Notes under the pieces: generated by a model
Databases searched by the model: none
What the model was told of the DNA's origin: nothing
Seen by the model: the letters and a program-made list of their open reading frames with translations, nothing else
Translations under genes and position numbers: made by a program
NCBI GenBank assembly: GCA_018818425.1
Contig: JAHISB010000032.1
Span: forward strand, 1-42,059
DNA: 42,059 bases
Direction: 5' to 3'
Source: Patescibacteria group bacterium
GTDB taxonomy: Bacteria; Patescibacteriota; Patescibacteriia; UBA1558; UBA10009
Part shown: positions 31,667-42,059 of the stretch, one piece after another
How the letters are laid out: the number at the start of each line of letters is the position of its first letter
How positions within the stretch are numbered: position 1 is the first letter of the stretch

Positions 31667-32338
31667 TTATTTAAATTGAGTTGCGAAATCAATCCAATCT
31701 TCAAGTTCAGATTGAGTTTGGACATAACCGCGTATATCAATATCATTTCCTTTATGAATTCCTAAATGTAAATGTTTTCTTTCATTATCAGTTTCATCGC
31801 TAAAACCTTGACCCAGAATTCCGAGCGGACTTTCTGCCTTAATTGATTGATTTAGATTATCAGCGATGCTGCTCAAGTTTAGGTGGCCATAAATCACCGT
31901 AACATCATTGTTATCGATTTTACATTGCTGGACAGCCGCTCCGCCATATCCGCTGACAAACTGTTTAAAAACCAAAGGTCCGTCGCAGATAGCATAAATT
32001 TTTACTTTCTGATTTTGTTCGTCCGGATAAGTTTCGAAATCAACACCGGTATGGTAACCGGCAAAACGTTCAGGAGCAATAGGGGATTGTTCCGGGGAAA
32101 TTTTAATGCCAAAGGGTTTTTTAGTTATTCTGATTAAAGCGTTATTAATCGGTGCGGAGATAATATTTAATCCATTTAATTGATTTGTTGCGTGACTGTC
32201 GTCAACATTATTTTTTATTGAAGCGTCGTTATTTAAAGGATTTTGGATATCGGATTGTTTATTAAATAATAAATATACCGAAGTTAAGATAATAATCACA
32301 AGAGTAAAAATACCAATAAAAATAATTTTTCTGTTCAT
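31667..32338 (-). CDS. M23-family (LytM-like) peptidase, membrane anchored
   Basis: N-terminal TM; HTGVDFE, VIYGHLN, KHLHLGIHKG. Confidence 0.85.
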   Translation of the reverse strand: MNRKIIFIGIFTLVIIILTSVYLLFNKQSDIQNPLNNDASIKNNVDDSHATNQLNGLNIISAPINNALIRITKKPFGIKISPEQSPIAPERFAGYHTGVDFETYPDEQNQKVKIYAICDGPLVFKQFVSGYGGAAVQQCKIDNNDVTVIYGHLNLSSIADNLNQSIKAESPLGILGQGFSDETDNERKHLHLGIHKGNDIDIRGYVQTQSELEDWIDFATQFK

Positions 32339-35046: not shown

Positions 35047-36627
35047 TTACATTTTTTCAGGAGCGCTTATCCCCAGTATATCAAATAAAGATTTCAGAAT
35101 AATTTTAGCAGCCTGAATCAATTTGACCCTCGACCAGTTTACTTTGCCGTTGTTGATAACTCGGCAATGAGCGTAGAATTGATGGAATTTGTCAGACAGA
35201 TTTATAGCGTATTGAGTTAAATTTTGGACTTGGTAGTTTTGAGAAACGCCGACAAGCAGATCCGGTAATTTAACCAGTTCTTTAATTAAGCTTAACTCGG
35301 GCGGCGATTGAAATTCCAACGTTGCTTTGGCTGGAATTTTTTTAATTTCCTTTTGTCTTAAAATACTGCAGATTCTGGCATAGGCATATTGAACATAATA
35401 AACGGGATTTTTTTCCGACCTTTCCTTGGCCAGATTTAAATCGAAATTAATATGAGTAGCGGCGCTGTATTGGAGAAAGTAAAATCTGGCAACGTCCGCG
35501 CTCACTTCGTTGATTAAATCATCAATATAAATTGAGTTGCCGGCTCTTTTGGACATCCTAACCTCTTGGCCGTTTTTTATAATACTGACAAATTGAGTGA
35601 GGATAATTTTTAGTTTATTTTTATGGCCTAAAACATCAGCCGCGGCCTGCAGACGTTTAACATCGCCGTGATGGTCGGCGCCCCAGATATTGATTACTTG
35701 GTCAAAACCGCGGTCAAATTTGTTTTTATGGTAGGCAAAGTCTTGGGCAAAATATGTCGGCTCGCCGCTGCTTCTGATTAAAACCCGGTCTTTGTCGTCC
35801 CCGTAGCTTGTGGATTTAAACCATAAGGCGCCATCTTTTTCATAAACATAATCGTGGCGCCGGAGCCATTTAATAATTTGAGGAATTAATTTTTTTTCTC
35901 TAATTTCTTTTTGTTCAGAAAACCAGACATCAAATTCAATGTTCATTTTTTTTCTAACTGTTTTTTTAATGTAATTGTTAAGGATTTTTTTGGCTGCCTG
36001 TTGCCCGGCCAGGCAAGGGTCTGCCTCCTTTATTTTATCGTGAAGATTATCGATATACTCTCCTTGGTAAACCGCCTGTTCATTTTTTAAAATAGAATGG
36101 CCCAAGTTTTCTATTTGGCTGCCGGCGTCGTTGATTAAATACTCTTTGGTGATTTTATAACCGCAGCTTTTCATAACATTGCCCAGAACGTCGCCTAAAT
36201 AGCCGCCCCGGGCATTGCCGACGGTCAGCGGTCCAGTAGGGTTGGCCGAAATAAACTCAATTTGAATTTTTTTATTATCACCGCCCTTGGTTAAACAAAA
36301 TTTATGTTTCTTTTTTAAAATTTCGGTTAGCAGATTTATTAAATACTTATTGCTAAGAGTAAAGTTAATAAATCCCGGTTCGGCTGTTTCAATTTTGGCC
36401 AAGAGGGGAGAGTTTGCTTTATTGATTTGCTGAACAATGTCATCAGCTAAATTCAATGGCTTTTTTTTGAGCTTTTTAGCCAAGCTAAGAGCGATATTGG
36501 TGGAGTAGTCGCCAAAGGCCTGATTTTTAGGGCAGGCAATTTCAATCCTGCCTATCGATAAAGACCTATCGATGGGCATGATGCTCTTGTGGATTAATTT
36601 GATTATTTGTTGTTCAGCGGTTTCCAT
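35047..36627 (-). CDS. argS: Arginyl-tRNA synthetase
   Basis: IEFISANPTGPLTVGNARGGYLGDVLGNVMKSCGY, MSKRAGN, C-terminal anticodon-binding domain. Confidence 0.95.
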   Translation of the reverse strand: METAEQQIIKLIHKSIMPIDRSLSIGRIEIACPKNQAFGDYSTNIALSLAKKLKKKPLNLADDIVQQINKANSPLLAKIETAEPGFINFTLSNKYLINLLTEILKKKHKFCLTKGGDNKKIQIEFISANPTGPLTVGNARGGYLGDVLGNVMKSCGYKITKEYLINDAGSQIENLGHSILKNEQAVYQGEYIDNLHDKIKEADPCLAGQQAAKKILNNYIKKTVRKKMNIEFDVWFSEQKEIREKKLIPQIIKWLRRHDYVYEKDGALWFKSTSYGDDKDRVLIRSSGEPTYFAQDFAYHKNKFDRGFDQVINIWGADHHGDVKRLQAAADVLGHKNKLKIILTQFVSIIKNGQEVRMSKRAGNSIYIDDLINEVSADVARFYFLQYSAATHINFDLNLAKERSEKNPVYYVQYAYARICSILRQKEIKKIPAKATLEFQSPPELSLIKELVKLPDLLVGVSQNYQVQNLTQYAINLSDKFHQFYAHCRVINNGKVNWSRVKLIQAAKIILKSLFDILGISAPEKM

Positions 36628-36837: not shown

Positions 36838-38404
36838 TAATATCGGATAAAGTTAAAGCTTGGCTATTTAGTGATATAGTAGACAATTTAATAATATCGG
36901 ATAGAAAGATTATATAATCATCGCCATAAAATAATCTTTATTTTTTTATAAATATTAAGTAAAATTTTATAATTTTGTTAGCATTATCCACTTTAAGTAA
37001 TATCGGATAATTTTTTAATTAATTTGAAACGTAAAATAAAGCATGTTTTTTGTTTAAGGCTACCCGATATCGGATTTTTTATTTTATAAATCCAATCATT
37101 TTTAGAATGGAAAACAGATATTTTATTCATTTCATCACTTTTTTAGAAAGATTTTTTTTTGTACTTTTGGCGGCAACCCGACTGCCGGCAAGGCAGGAAG
37201 TACCAAAATCGCTGGGGGCAGCAAAACTCGCTCTTGGTACTAATCATCTCTTTATGGCTAAACACGACGCTCCTGCCTGCCGGTCTTCGACTCTGATGGA
37301 TGTGCTCTCAGACTTAGACTTGACTGAGCAGTCAGGCAAACATTTGCTGCACCAACTTTAAGTTGAAAATAACGAATAATGCTTTAATCTACTGATATCG
37401 GATAGAATAAAAACCGCCACATTTTGGAGTGATTATTAGCTTATATTTATGGGTTTATACTCAAGCGCTTAAATAATTCCGTATAATGCCCCAAAGCTTT
37501 ACTTTGAAAAATCCTCTGATATTAAAGTAAAAAATTCACTTTAATAAATTAAATAAATTCGGAATTATAAAAGCGAAGGGGTATAATTGGAATTCTTTCT
37601 ACCCAGTTTCAATTAAAATAACGGTTATTTTGCTCCATATCTTGAGTCAATTACGTTGGACATTTCTTCGGATATATATCTAGGCGAGCAGGTAAAATCA
37701 AGCGATATTTGAGCCCTGTTAAGAGGGATCTATCTGCTTTCTTTTTATCCGATATTACCTTTATTTTATACTAAACAGTGTTGATGAATTTATTTCCAAA
37801 ACGGGCCTTAGGTAGCCAGGTAAAGCGAAGAGTAAATTCCACGCCATTGCTTATGGTTTTATGATGCGGGGCAGAGCGGCCTCCACAGGGTAACAATTGA
37901 GTCGATGATCGGCATGAAGTAATACTTGTTTAGTGACAGATTCCGTGGTTCTGACGGAGCTTAATTTGAGTGAATCAGAACTATTGTATAAGTCATTTAA
38001 ACGTCTTTGATTTTTAGATTAATTTAGACATCTAAAGAGGCCTTTAAGGATAGTTAAAGTAGTGGATAACTGTTATTAAATTCCCGCTTTTTTAGTTTGT
38101 AAAGTTATTGTTGTGGATAATTTATTATTTGAAGTAAAATATCGTTAAAATAGCTTATAAATTTGATAAAAAAACAAATATCGGATAATTGGATAAGCTG
38201 TGTGAAAATACCTGTAAAAAATGGGGATAATGTGTTATAATTAATATCGGATAGCCGATAATTTACCAAGCTATTTTTAAGCTAAATTTGGCGTTAAAAA
38301 TAGCTATTAACCGATATTACTTTTTTAAGTAATATGACGGTAATTTTTATTAGTCCCCATGCCAAAAACAAACAAGGAAAGAAAGACAAAAATATCCGAT
38401 ATTA
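36838..38404. promoter_or_regulatory. Iterated TAATATCGGATAA motif cluster
   Basis: Copies/variants at 36838, 36892, 36998, 37064 (palindromic CCGATATCGG), 37393, 37745(-), 38176, 38242, 38307(-), 38392(-). Confidence 0.85.
37456..37585 (-). mobile_element. 130-bp MITE-like element, copy 2 (inverted relative to copy 1)
   Basis: Reverse complement aligns to 28371-28500 over the full 130 bp with about 3 mismatches. Confidence 0.75.
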
Positions 38405-41400
38405 CAGAATCTGGCCAAATAGATAATAAGCTCAAAGATGAAGAGTTGGATGAGTACATATCTTTAAGCCGGGCAGCTGAGCTTTGCTCTTATTCTCAGG
38501 AGTATTTAAGTTTGCTTTCCAGAAAGGGACAGATCAATTCTAAAAAAATGGGGCGCAATTGGTTTATTACCAAGAGGGTCCTTTTTGAATACGTTGAAAA
38601 GAATTCTGCTGACCAGAAAGGCAATAAAAAAGGCGAGCTGGCAGAGAGCATTAAAAAGAAATATTATTTTTATGACAACTTATTAACCAAAAGCATTAAA
38701 GAGTCGGTCCGGTTAATACTTGAAAGCGTTAACCAGAGGATAGTTCAGGGGATAAGTAAAAAGTTATTCCATCGCTTAAAAGGTTTTTTTGCCAAGCTGA
38801 ATGCTCAAGAAAAAGTGGTCGCCAGTTTTGTCAGCAGACAATCAACGCTAAAAACACTAAGACAGGCAACTATTCTGCTGTTACTATTTACCTTGACTTT
38901 TAGTTCTATCATTTATGCCCCCGAGGCGATGGCTCACTACCAAGACGGTTTAGTGAAATTGAAAAAATTGACCGACGCAACTCTCGGCAGATCGTTAAGA
39001 GCCACAGAAGACAGTTTGCAAAAAACATTTGAGATCTATCGGGACACTTTGGCTTTTATCAAGGATCCTTCCAGTTTGGATTTTAAGACAGGCTTTAATT
39101 TGTTGGGCCAGGGCTTTGAAAAGTTAGGATCCGATACTATTTTAGACGCTTTAGTTCTTTCAGATAAATTATCGGATAAATTTTTGGCAGGCGTGACTGG
39201 TAATTTAAATTGGCTATCCGCCAATTCTCAAAAAGTCGCCATAAAAATAACAGCAACGCCCGGAATTTTTGCGCTTAATCAGGGAGAAAATTTTTCTAAT
39301 CTTTTTTCCCGACTTACTGCTCAGATTAATCACAGGCAACAGCTGGCCCTTGGCGGCGCATCCAGATCTGTCAATAGACTTTTTTCCAGAACGGGCAGTA
39401 TTCTTGAAGATAGGGCAAGTTCTTTATTGCGGGTCGCTCAGAATTATTTTGGAACCAAGCTGGCTTTTATTGAAAAACCCGGCCTAAAATTAGAACCGCA
39501 AATCGCCGGTGTTTACGAACAACGGCAGGAAAGCAAAATCGATCAGAGAATTCAAGATTTCTTTTTTGAAGTCTATTTAAAACCCGATCAGTATTTAGAC
39601 CGGAAGGAAGAGATGTCAAAATATGAAACGAATCAGAGAGTTCAGGATTTGTTTGCCGAAGTCTACGGTGGTTATGAAAAGTATCCCGAGCCAGAAAAGC
39701 TGGTAAAATCTTCTAGAGAAAACATCTTAAACGCCGTCGCCGCTACTTTTGTCGGCGATCTAAAAGAGTTGAGTCAATTTGTTCAGCGAGCGGTGGAGCG
39801 GGTTTCGGAAATACCGGATCAGTTAGCCAGGCGCAGCCAGACAACCAAAGTAAAATCGGCGGCCCTGGGTTCTGTTATTAAAGCTGCGGGAGAGGCCCTG
39901 TCTTTTATAACGGACAGTTCGCTGGTTGAGTTTAAAAAGCAGCTTAAAGATTTAGCTTTAGCCAGTCAAAGGTTATATAAAAATATTTGGCTGGGAGCCG
40001 ACACCCGTTTCGTTAAAAGCGATGAATATTTAACAGACGAAATTCAAACATTACTTGGCCAGCTTAGCGAAAGTTTTCAGTCTATCAAAGATGGCGAAGG
40101 CAAGCTAGTTTATATGCAAGGGCCACAGGGGCCGGCAGGCTTTGCCGGACCCCAGGGACTGCCCGGTGAACTGGGCCTGCCCGGTCCGGCGGGATCGCCG
40201 GGCGAGCCAGGCCTTCAGGGTGAAAAGGGTCAGGATGGATTAGCTTTTGGCAACAATACTTATAATTACGGCGGCACCGTAGTTTATGGCGGTGACACAG
40301 TGGTAGTCCAGAGTTTATCAGCAATAGACAGTTTAGCGGTCGGTGGCGGCGGTTTAGGCGTGGGCGGTAATTTAACCGTTGGCGGCAATACTCAACTGGG
40401 AAATAACAGCGGCGATACTTTGACCGTTTCTGGTCCGGCAACTTTTCAGGATTCAGTTAACATTAATGGTTCCTTAACAGCTGCTAACGCAACTATCAGC
40501 GGTCTGCTGACTGTAAATGACAATTCAACTTTTAATGATTCAATCGTAATTTACTCAACTTCACTGCCTCAAGTAAAAATTGGTTATAACACTCTCAACT
40601 ATTGGCAGAGTTCTACTGATTCTTCCGGCAGAACCACTTTTGATGCAGTAGGCACTTCCACTGATAATTTTTTATTTTATGACGAGGTAGCCATAACAGC
40701 GGCTTCCACCTCTGCTTTTAAAGTAGCTGCCGCCGGAGCAACTACCACTTTTGTTGTTGATACGGTTAATCTTAATGTCGGTATCGGCACTTCAACGCCA
40801 AATTACAATTTAGATGTAAGCGGCAATATTAATTTTACGGGCAACCTTTATCAGGCCGGCTCTATTTTTACATCAGGCGGCGGCTATTGGACCCAAACCG
40901 GCAATGATCTTTACTATTTAACCGGCAACGTAGGTATTGGCACTACTTCTCCGGCAGCTCTTTTGTCTTTAGCCGGTACAACTTCGCCCATGATTATGGT
41001 TGACGCCCCTTCTGGATATGCCAACCGGCTTTTTGACCTAAAAGTGGCTTCTTCTTCTGTCTTTACTATAAACCAAGCAGGTACTATTACCACTAATTTA
41101 GATATCGGAGGCCTGGCCACTATTACCGCAGCAACAGGCAATTTCATCACTGCTGGCAACATCAATGCCACCGGCACTCTCTCGGTAACGGGCAATACAA
41201 AATTATTTTCTAATATCGAGGTTTTGGGAACTGTTACTTTAGGCGATACCAACTGGAATGACAATGACCTTTTAACTGTTTATGCCACTTCTACCTTTTC
41301 AGCTACCGGCACCACCCCTGGCTTTACTATCAGACAAGGAGGAACAGGAGATATCTTTAATCTCTATGACGCAGATACCGAAGTTCTAACTGTTTTAGAC

Positions 41401-42059
41401 GGGGGCAATGTGGGCATCGGCACCACCACACCGGCAGCTCAATTATCTGTCCATGTCCCGACTGCCGCAGAAACCGCTATTATGGTTGACAGCGTGGTCG
41501 GCTACTCCAGCAACTTTTTAGACCTTAAAGTGGCTTCTTCCACCGTATTTCTTATCGATTCAACGGGAACCATTACCTCTGGCTCCTGGACCGCCACAGT
41601 GATTGAAGAAATATACGGCGGCACCGGTCAAAGCAGTTATGCTGCCGGCGATATTCTTTATGCTGGTGGCGCTGATTCACTCACCCGTTTAGCCAAAGGA
41701 GCAGACGGCAAGGTCTTAAAGTTAGCAGGCGGCGTTCCCACCTGGGCAGATGATAATAGCGGCAGTGGCGGTAGTCCTAGTTTTTGGTCAACTACAACCA
41801 ATAACAGAATTGTTTATCCAATAGATACTACCGATATAGTAGTAATTGGAGATAATGCCACCAGAACCACCAGCTCTATTTTTGAAGTTATTGGTTCATC
41901 ATATTTTTCTAATAATGTCGGCATCGGCACCACCACCCCGGCGGCCCGTCTTTCGGTAGCCGGCGGCTCTTCGCCCATGATTATGGTTGACGCCCCTTCT
42001 GGCTTCACCAATAATCTTTTAGACCTTAAAGTGGCTTCTTCCTCCAAATTCACCATTAA
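38359..42059 (+). CDS. Very large surface protein (3' incomplete): HTH + hydrophobic/signal segment + collagen-like + tail-fibre-like repeats
   Basis: Open frame from ATG 38359 to the window end (not in the ORF track). HTH: DEYISLSRAAELCSYSQEYLSLLSRKGQINSKKMGRNWFITKRVLFEYV. Hydrophobic: TLRQATILLLLFTLTFSSIIYAPEAMA. Collagen-like: GPQGPAGFAGPQGLPGELGLPGPAGSPGEPGLQGEKGQDG. Repeats: VGIGTTTPAA. Confidence 0.9.
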   Translation, partial: MPKTNKERKTKISDITESGQIDNKLKDEELDEYISLSRAAELCSYSQEYLSLLSRKGQINSKKMGRNWFITKRVLFEYVEKNSADQKGNKKGELAESIKKKYYFYDNLLTKSIKESVRLILESVNQRIVQGISKKLFHRLKGFFAKLNAQEKVVASFVSRQSTLKTLRQATILLLLFTLTFSSIIYAPEAMAHYQDGLVKLKKLTDATLGRSLRATEDSLQKTFEIYRDTLAFIKDPSSLDFKTGFNLLGQGFEKLGSDTILDALVLSDKLSDKFLAGVTGNLNWLSANSQKVAIKITATPGIFALNQGENFSNLFSRLTAQINHRQQLALGGASRSVNRLFSRTGSILEDRASSLLRVAQNYFGTKLAFIEKPGLKLEPQIAGVYEQRQESKIDQRIQDFFFEVYLKPDQYLDRKEEMSKYETNQRVQDLFAEVYGGYEKYPEPEKLVKSSRENILNAVAATFVGDLKELSQFVQRAVERVSEIPDQLARRSQTTKVKSAALGSVIKAAGEALSFITDSSLVEFKKQLKDLALASQRLYKNIWLGADTRFVKSDEYLTDEIQTLLGQLSESFQSIKDGEGKLVYMQGPQGPAGFAGPQGLPGELGLPGPAGSPGEPGLQGEKGQDGLAFGNNTYNYGGTVVYGGDTVVVQSLSAIDSLAVGGGGLGVGGNLTVGGNTQLGNNSGDTLTVSGPATFQDSVNINGSLTAANATISGLLTVNDNSTFNDSIVIYSTSLPQVKIGYNTLNYWQSSTDSSGRTTFDAVGTSTDNFLFYDEVAITAASTSAFKVAAAGATTTFVVDTVNLNVGIGTSTPNYNLDVSGNINFTGNLYQAGSIFTSGGGYWTQTGNDLYYLTGNVGIGTTSPAALLSLAGTTSPMIMVDAPSGYANRLFDLKVASSSVFTINQAGTITTNLDIGGLATITAATGNFITAGNINATGTLSVTGNTKLFSNIEVLGTVTLGDTNWNDNDLLTVYATSTFSATGTTPGFTIRQGGTGDIFNLYDADTEVLTVLDGGNVGIGTTTPAAQLSVHVPTAAETAIMVDSVVGYSSNFLDLKVASSTVFLIDSTGTITSGSWTATVIEEIYGGTGQSSYAAGDILYAGGADSLTRLAKGADGKVLKLAGGVPTWADDNSGSGGSPSFWSTTTNNRIVYPIDTTDIVVIGDNATRTTSSIFEVIGSSYFSNNVGIGTTTPAARLSVAGGSSPMIMVDAPSGFTNNLLDLKVASSSKFTI
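40120..40236 (+). repeat. Collagen-like Gly-X-Y tract (13 triplets)
   Basis: In-frame GPQ GPA GFA GPQ GLP GEL GLP GPA GSP GEP GLQ GEK GQD. Confidence 0.9.

Follow-up and report, generated by a model that had tools for sequence, protein, structure and literature searches.

A predicted autoregulatory operator array at a patescibacterial gene encoding a collagen-like surface protein with an N-terminal winged helix-turn-helix domain

Transmembrane transcription regulators are, by a working definition, proteins that possess both a DNA-binding domain and a transmembrane region; the main text of the survey that gives this definition mentions neither Patescibacteria, nor collagen, nor HTH_17 (PMC10269533). 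The membrane-bound regulator CadC finds its DNA about twice as fast with a two-site mutant (PMC7888679). BldC, a free MerR-like protein of 68 amino acids with its own regulon, binds head-to-tail on direct repeats (PMC5859096). Among collagen-like adhesins, control of the pclA gene lies with PclR, a separate activator (PMC9276737). The surface protein described here meets the definition of a transmembrane regulator, as it combines a predicted winged helix-turn-helix (wHTH) domain with a transmembrane segment, its action on transcription from the membrane being inferred. No description of such a system, made of an HTH surface protein and its operators, was found in the literature searched, the coverage of which is incomplete.

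The window, that is, the whole stretch of 42,059 nucleotides that was analysed, is contig C4 of a 54-contig, 1.23-Mb genome (1,225,946 bp) that counts Candidatus Komeilibacteria and other Patescibacteria among its family and order relatives. A 1.73-kb gap separates the divergent argS (start 36627, minus strand) and surface-protein (start 38359, plus strand) genes, whose main features are the following.

35047 to 36627, minus strand: argS, the divergent neighbour.
38359 to 42057, plus strand: gene for a membrane-anchored surface protein (anchoring predicted) with an N-terminal wHTH, at least 1233 amino acids, open at the contig end (42059).
38449 to 38634, plus strand: predicted wHTH domain, amino acids 31-92 (HTH about 34-83), beta-H-H-beta-beta-H, MerR/Xis/BldC type.
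38866 to 38922, plus strand: predicted single transmembrane segment, amino acids 170-188, preceded by a K/R-rich stretch, predicted N-in, from hydropathy on homologues.
40120 to 40239, plus strand: collagen-like Gly-X-Y stretch, amino acids 588-627 (PF01391, E=8.8e-07).

The protein is laid out as a wHTH, a linker, a transmembrane helix and a long outer part that contains the collagen stretch and β-rich repeats; by hydropathy, a transmembrane segment comparable to residues 170-188 is present in nearly all homologues. The first-pass annotation had held that the open reading frame (ORF) starts with a DNA-binding HTH, and this is now supported as a prediction. Pfam HTH_17 matches the window protein weakly (E=0.0021, below cut-off) and one homologue above cut-off. 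The AF2 model of the wHTH, built on an alignment of 49 homologous domains, has a confident core, with a mean pLDDT of about 91-92 over residues 1-50 (from the single sequence, amino acids 1-206 reach a pLDDT of only 46). Among its nearest Foldseek neighbours are BldC, RdfS, NmlR and Xis (probability 0.92-0.99, TM-score 0.6-0.74, E>0.05), the first three at a probability of 0.96-0.99 and BldC at a probability of 0.97-0.99 and a TM-score of 0.64-0.74 (E>0.05); these weak E-values are due to the short length of the domain. A PDB sequence search returned no match. As modelled, the domain fits a wHTH fold related to those of MerR, BldC and Xis. The window gene is the sole member of its HTH family in its own genome (profile search, E<=1e-10); the wHTH is tandemly duplicated in three relatives (G002, G008 and G014).

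With Gly-X-Y repeats on a segment whose export is predicted and not shown, the protein also qualifies as collagen-like; the NCBIfam models of the Scl1/Scl2 adhesins match it weakly, below family cut-offs. An A-x-A-like site follows the transmembrane segment (APEAMA followed by HYQ; window 38902-38927), likewise in G002, G005, G010 and G016; in some lineages, signal peptidase might release the outer fibre from the HTH-transmembrane stub, the cleavage site being inferred. A self-cleaving S74 design similar to that of MYRF was considered and rejected, as no S74 domain appears in the Pfam scans, though the window protein is incomplete at the contig end. Many HTH surface genes have a TCCCCATG start context and no obvious Shine-Dalgarno sequence (window 38346-38361 and relatives), and GCATGGGGA is an enriched 9-mer upstream of these genes.

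The order rplT-infC-smpB-(argS)-sites-surface gene, with its housekeeping neighbours, is kept across families; argS is inverted in the window genome and co-oriented with the surface gene in G002, G005, G010 and G016. The gap also holds a repeat of about 65 bp (37274-37340), of which seven further partial copies exist elsewhere in the genome at 81-88% identity. A hidden RNA gene was considered and rejected, there being no tRNA or tmRNA and no credible Rfam match in the gap. What the gap does contain is a series of short repeated sites, which extends into the surface gene and surrounds a predicted promoter and a DnaA box.

36838 to 36850, plus strand: putative operator copy TAATATCGGATAA, exact.
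36892 to 36904, plus strand: putative operator copy TAATATCGGATAG.
36998 to 37010, plus strand: putative operator copy TAATATCGGATAA, exact.
37061 to 37076, no strand assigned: putative fused inverted pair of operator cores TACCCGATATCGGATT, containing CCGATATCGGAT at exactly 37064-37075.
37393 to 37405, plus strand: putative operator copy TGATATCGGATAG.
37745 to 37757, minus strand: putative operator copy TAATATCGGATAA, exact.
38112 to 38120, minus strand: exact DnaA-box sequence, TGTGGATAA on the coding strand.
38176 to 38188, plus strand: putative operator copy AAATATCGGATAA, promoter-proximal.
38236 to 38241, plus strand: predicted -10 TATAAT, extended TGTTATAAT, with no good -35.
38242 to 38254, plus strand: putative operator copy TAATATCGGATAG, over the predicted transcription start.
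38307 to 38319, minus strand: putative operator copy TAATATCGGTTAA, in the leader.
38392 to 38404, minus strand: putative operator copy TAATATCGGATAT, within ORF codons 12-16.

The first-pass annotation had counted about ten copies of the motif in both orientations within some 1.57 kb, including a fused palindrome and a copy that overlaps codons of the ORF, and all three statements are borne out: positions 36838-38404 hold eight exact copies of ATATCGGATA and, counting variants, about 11 sites in both orientations, of which about ten of the TAATATCGGATAA type (0-2 mismatches to TAATATCGGATAA) lie in the gap and one within the ORF. Its further statement that the core is absent from the rest of the window stands for exact ATATCGGATA (eight copies in the 1.57-kb array, none in the remaining 40.5 kb) but not for one-mismatch variants, which occur deeper in the surface-protein ORF (TTATCGGATA, 39169-39178) and outside the array at 32247 (ATATCGGATT); at no more than one mismatch, the window has 14 matches to ATATCGGATA versus 2.6 +/- 1.6 in shuffles. 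Over the 1,225,946 bp of the genome, exact ATATCGGATA occurs 11 times and the reversed control pattern once; the three copies outside the array are all located inside ORFs.

The motif accompanies the gene well beyond this genome. A profile search with the HTH finds matches in 77 of the 389 genomes of the class. When all k-mers in the 800 bp upstream of each of 42 long or surface-type homologues were ranked blind to the motif, TATCGGATA came first, with 59 copies at 30 of the 42 loci (0.30 expected); in a second, independent set, drawn from named genomes and with repeats of the first set excluded, it is present at 22 of 36 loci (0.25 expected). The exact sequence is missing upstream of the other homologues (12/42 and 14/36), some of which have TATCGG variants. 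Two relatives contributed 340 kb of unlinked sequence, in which TATCGGATA is absent; their own HTH genes have four and one copies, respectively. Relatives keep the site though the flanking intergenic sequence differs, and the sites cluster from -300 to +20 relative to the start codon. The spacings between adjacent sites peak at a period of 10.5 bp (25 spacings, R=0.59, p about 2e-4), which is consistent with cooperative binding on one face of the DNA, binding itself being inferred; tandem pairs 10-12 bp apart are found only at some relatives' loci, the window sites lying mostly tens to hundreds of base pairs from one another.

That the HTH reads the motif is best supported by a different protein family, in which promoter motif and recognition helix switch together. 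Some of the HTH-profile matches are Fic proteins with a C-terminal HTH. Those with a YSQEYLSL helix have TATCGG sites in their own promoter, within 150 bp of the start and often as an inverted pair, in nine of nine cases (the start codon of one locus, L222, is uncertain). Those with a SAKYLNL-type helix have ATATGGT in their own promoter, generally as an inverted pair about the -10, in 21 of 21 cases, and TATCGG in none. As far as sequence comparison can tell, the motif association goes with the HTH domain and not with the surface architecture, and a specificity code can be predicted in which a YLSL helix reads TATCGG and a YLNL helix reads ATATGGT. Shared ancestry within each helix group limits this evidence; since each group is partly one clade, Fisher-type p values overstate the independence of the covariation. 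In the genes with the SAKYLNL-type helix (L244-L263), a strongly conserved inverted operator, TTAATATGGTATA...TAAACCATATTAAG, surrounds the -10, and is predicted to represent a second autoregulatory specificity among patescibacterial Fic-HTH genes.

The motif clustering, the class-wide association of motif and HTH, the covariation of specificity, the helical phasing and the predicted fold are all computed results. They are best explained, with a probability of roughly 0.85 and in the absence of any binding or expression data, if the repeated sites serve as an operator array for the gene that starts at 38359, which its own membrane-tethered wHTH would autoregulate. The N-terminal MerR/Xis/BldC-type domain, which the single transmembrane helix would keep at the cytoplasmic face of the membrane, would bind TATCGG(ATA) sites around its own promoter and most probably repress the gene; physical binding, action from the membrane and the sign of regulation are inferences. 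The autoregulatory binding array that the first-pass annotation had thought plausible gains strong support from the de novo recovery of the motif, its near-absence elsewhere in the genome and the covariation of Fic helix and motif. The dedicated regulon suggested alongside it does not, as this genome has no other intergenic copy of ATATCGGATA; a genome-wide regulon was likewise rejected in G041, where 15 of 17 copies lie inside ORFs, as do the remaining copies in the window genome. In one relative (G001, contig C61; L045:1515-1610), an inverted pair of TATCGGATA sites spaced by 63 bp immediately precedes trxB and adjoins an IS200-like transposase gene; it is a possible extra target.

Repression is considered likeliest because the nearest site covers the predicted start (TATAAT-taa-TATCGGATA) and others fall within the leader and the first codons. 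The TATAAT at 38236-38241 sits three bases from the TATCGGATA core, and a TATAAT followed after 2-3 bp by TATCGGATA is the arrangement in G000, G002 and G005, which places the site on the predicted start. Class-wide, a -10-like hexamer with a site no more than 14 bp after it is found at 14 of 81 loci (shuffles average 0.69); the per-bin excess of this coupling over independent placement (81 loci) is modest, and the inference of start-site occlusion therefore rests chiefly on the Fic promoters and the closest relatives. For the same reason, and because the window promoter region lacks a strong -35, the transcription start is only predicted.

The array could instead be activating, the membrane-bound HTH recruiting RNA polymerase in the manner of ToxR or CadC and generating positive feedback on fibre production. 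Many characterised transmembrane regulators named in the survey are activators (PMC10269533), many of the sites lie upstream of the promoter, and the predicted promoter has no good -35, a frequent trait of activator-dependent promoters. This reading keeps some standing but is the less probable one, as in G000, G002 and G005 the closest sites lie on the predicted start or downstream of it, and the inverted motif pair of the Fic promoters with the related HTH straddles the -10 and start, a repressor geometry; negative autoregulation is clearly favoured over activation.

Another, unlinked transcription factor could bind the motif, the HTH of the neighbouring protein being a coincidence. Direct binding data that would exclude this are lacking, and the motif is not the only conserved element: an exact DnaA box is found upstream of 20/42 and 23/36 homologues, usually one per locus, TGTGGATAA ranking second (42 set) and first (36 set) among upstream 9-mers. 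Because this box is co-conserved, more than one factor may act on the surface-gene promoter. Such an unlinked factor remains unlikely, however: the motif switches with the recognition helix in the Fic genes, occurs elsewhere in the genome only inside ORFs, and no second HTH of the family was found in the genome. In the window genome, TGTGGATAA occurs 34 times (reversed control 11), mostly in intergenic DNA; many copies precede a gene by 60-350 bp, rpoB and two lexA-like genes being examples, and positions include C43:32502/32599, C16:18937, C42:5366 and C1:4807. Since the same nonamer precedes rpoB, lexA-like and other genes, it is regarded as a promoter-associated element of unknown meaning.

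A long AT-rich intergenic region with iterated sites and a DnaA box would also suit a replication origin, an iteron or a partition (centromere) site, the alternative raised by the first-pass annotation. This is very improbable: dnaA is on another contig, and 200 kb off in G002, a single-contig relative (masked in parts), whose GC-skew switches (near 130-240 kb and 670 kb) do not coincide with the array (3.6 kb); G012 has no GC-skew switch at 57.6 kb; exact DnaA-box sequences are also present ahead of rpoB, lexA-like and other genes; and in the Fic genes the motif is found in promoters that are short. A pair of DnaA-box sequences (C43:32502/32599; 165 kb in G002) was considered as oriC and rejected, as it lies upstream of rpoB in the window genome. 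Least tenable of all is the view of the motif as a repeat of a general kind, whether uptake sequence, REP or palindromic element, accumulating in intergenic DNA, for which the separate 65-bp dispersed repeat in the same region might speak, but eight of the 11 genomic copies of the 10-mer ATATCGGATA are at the array, the rest are inside ORFs, and relatives keep the site amid differing intergenic sequence.

The outer part of the surface protein is a predicted collagen-like surface fibre, probably trimeric (trimerisation being inferred). The resulting local concentration of HTH domains, together with the helical phasing of the sites, would make it easier for several heads to bind cooperatively. 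The array may also shorten the search for DNA, as two sites do for membrane-bound CadC. The distal sites, 0.6-1.5 kb upstream, are not accounted for by simple promoter occlusion; looping by a multi-headed fibre is one possibility. That the surface fibre is its own transcription factor, trimeric fibres docking at least three cytoplasmic heads on the phased array, can only be put forward tentatively. In that event, the number or engagement of surface fibres, possibly through host contact, would be coupled directly to transcription; the gene would be pinned at the membrane, with synthesis, export and feedback forming one machine; and the co-conserved DnaA box would add a cell-cycle input.

Regulation in Patescibacteria is almost unexplored. 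A predicted autoregulatory operator system of this kind occurs class-wide, its binding and sign not being shown, and the regulator-operator pair can be tested in E. coli or in vitro with no need to grow the organism. If true, it would link the state of a surface fibre directly to gene control and yield a ready-made promoter-regulator part for use in Patescibacteria.

The excisionases of phages and integrative and conjugative elements (Xis, RdfS) have a wHTH structurally similar to that of the surface protein, and Xis-type excisionases bind clustered sites cooperatively; in comparison, the surface-gene locus has no integrase or att context. BldC resembles the domain in fold class, as a small wHTH without effector domain that uses multiple sites, but is a free protein with a regulon, whereas here a membrane-anchored protein carries the wHTH at its N-terminus. 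Collagen-like adhesins (Scl1/Scl2, Lcl, PclA) share the Gly-X-Y stretch and surface exposure; pclA depends on a separate activator, whereas here a domain of the adhesin-like protein itself is the proposed regulator. ToxR, CadC, TcpP and BcrR carry a cytoplasmic DNA-binding domain and a transmembrane segment on one polypeptide, as is predicted here, and a search for DNA from within the membrane would be a further shared trait. By comparison with them, the only target detectable in this genome is the gene's own promoter, the DNA-binding domain is of the MerR/Xis type, and the part outside the membrane is a large collagen-like fibre and not a small sensor.
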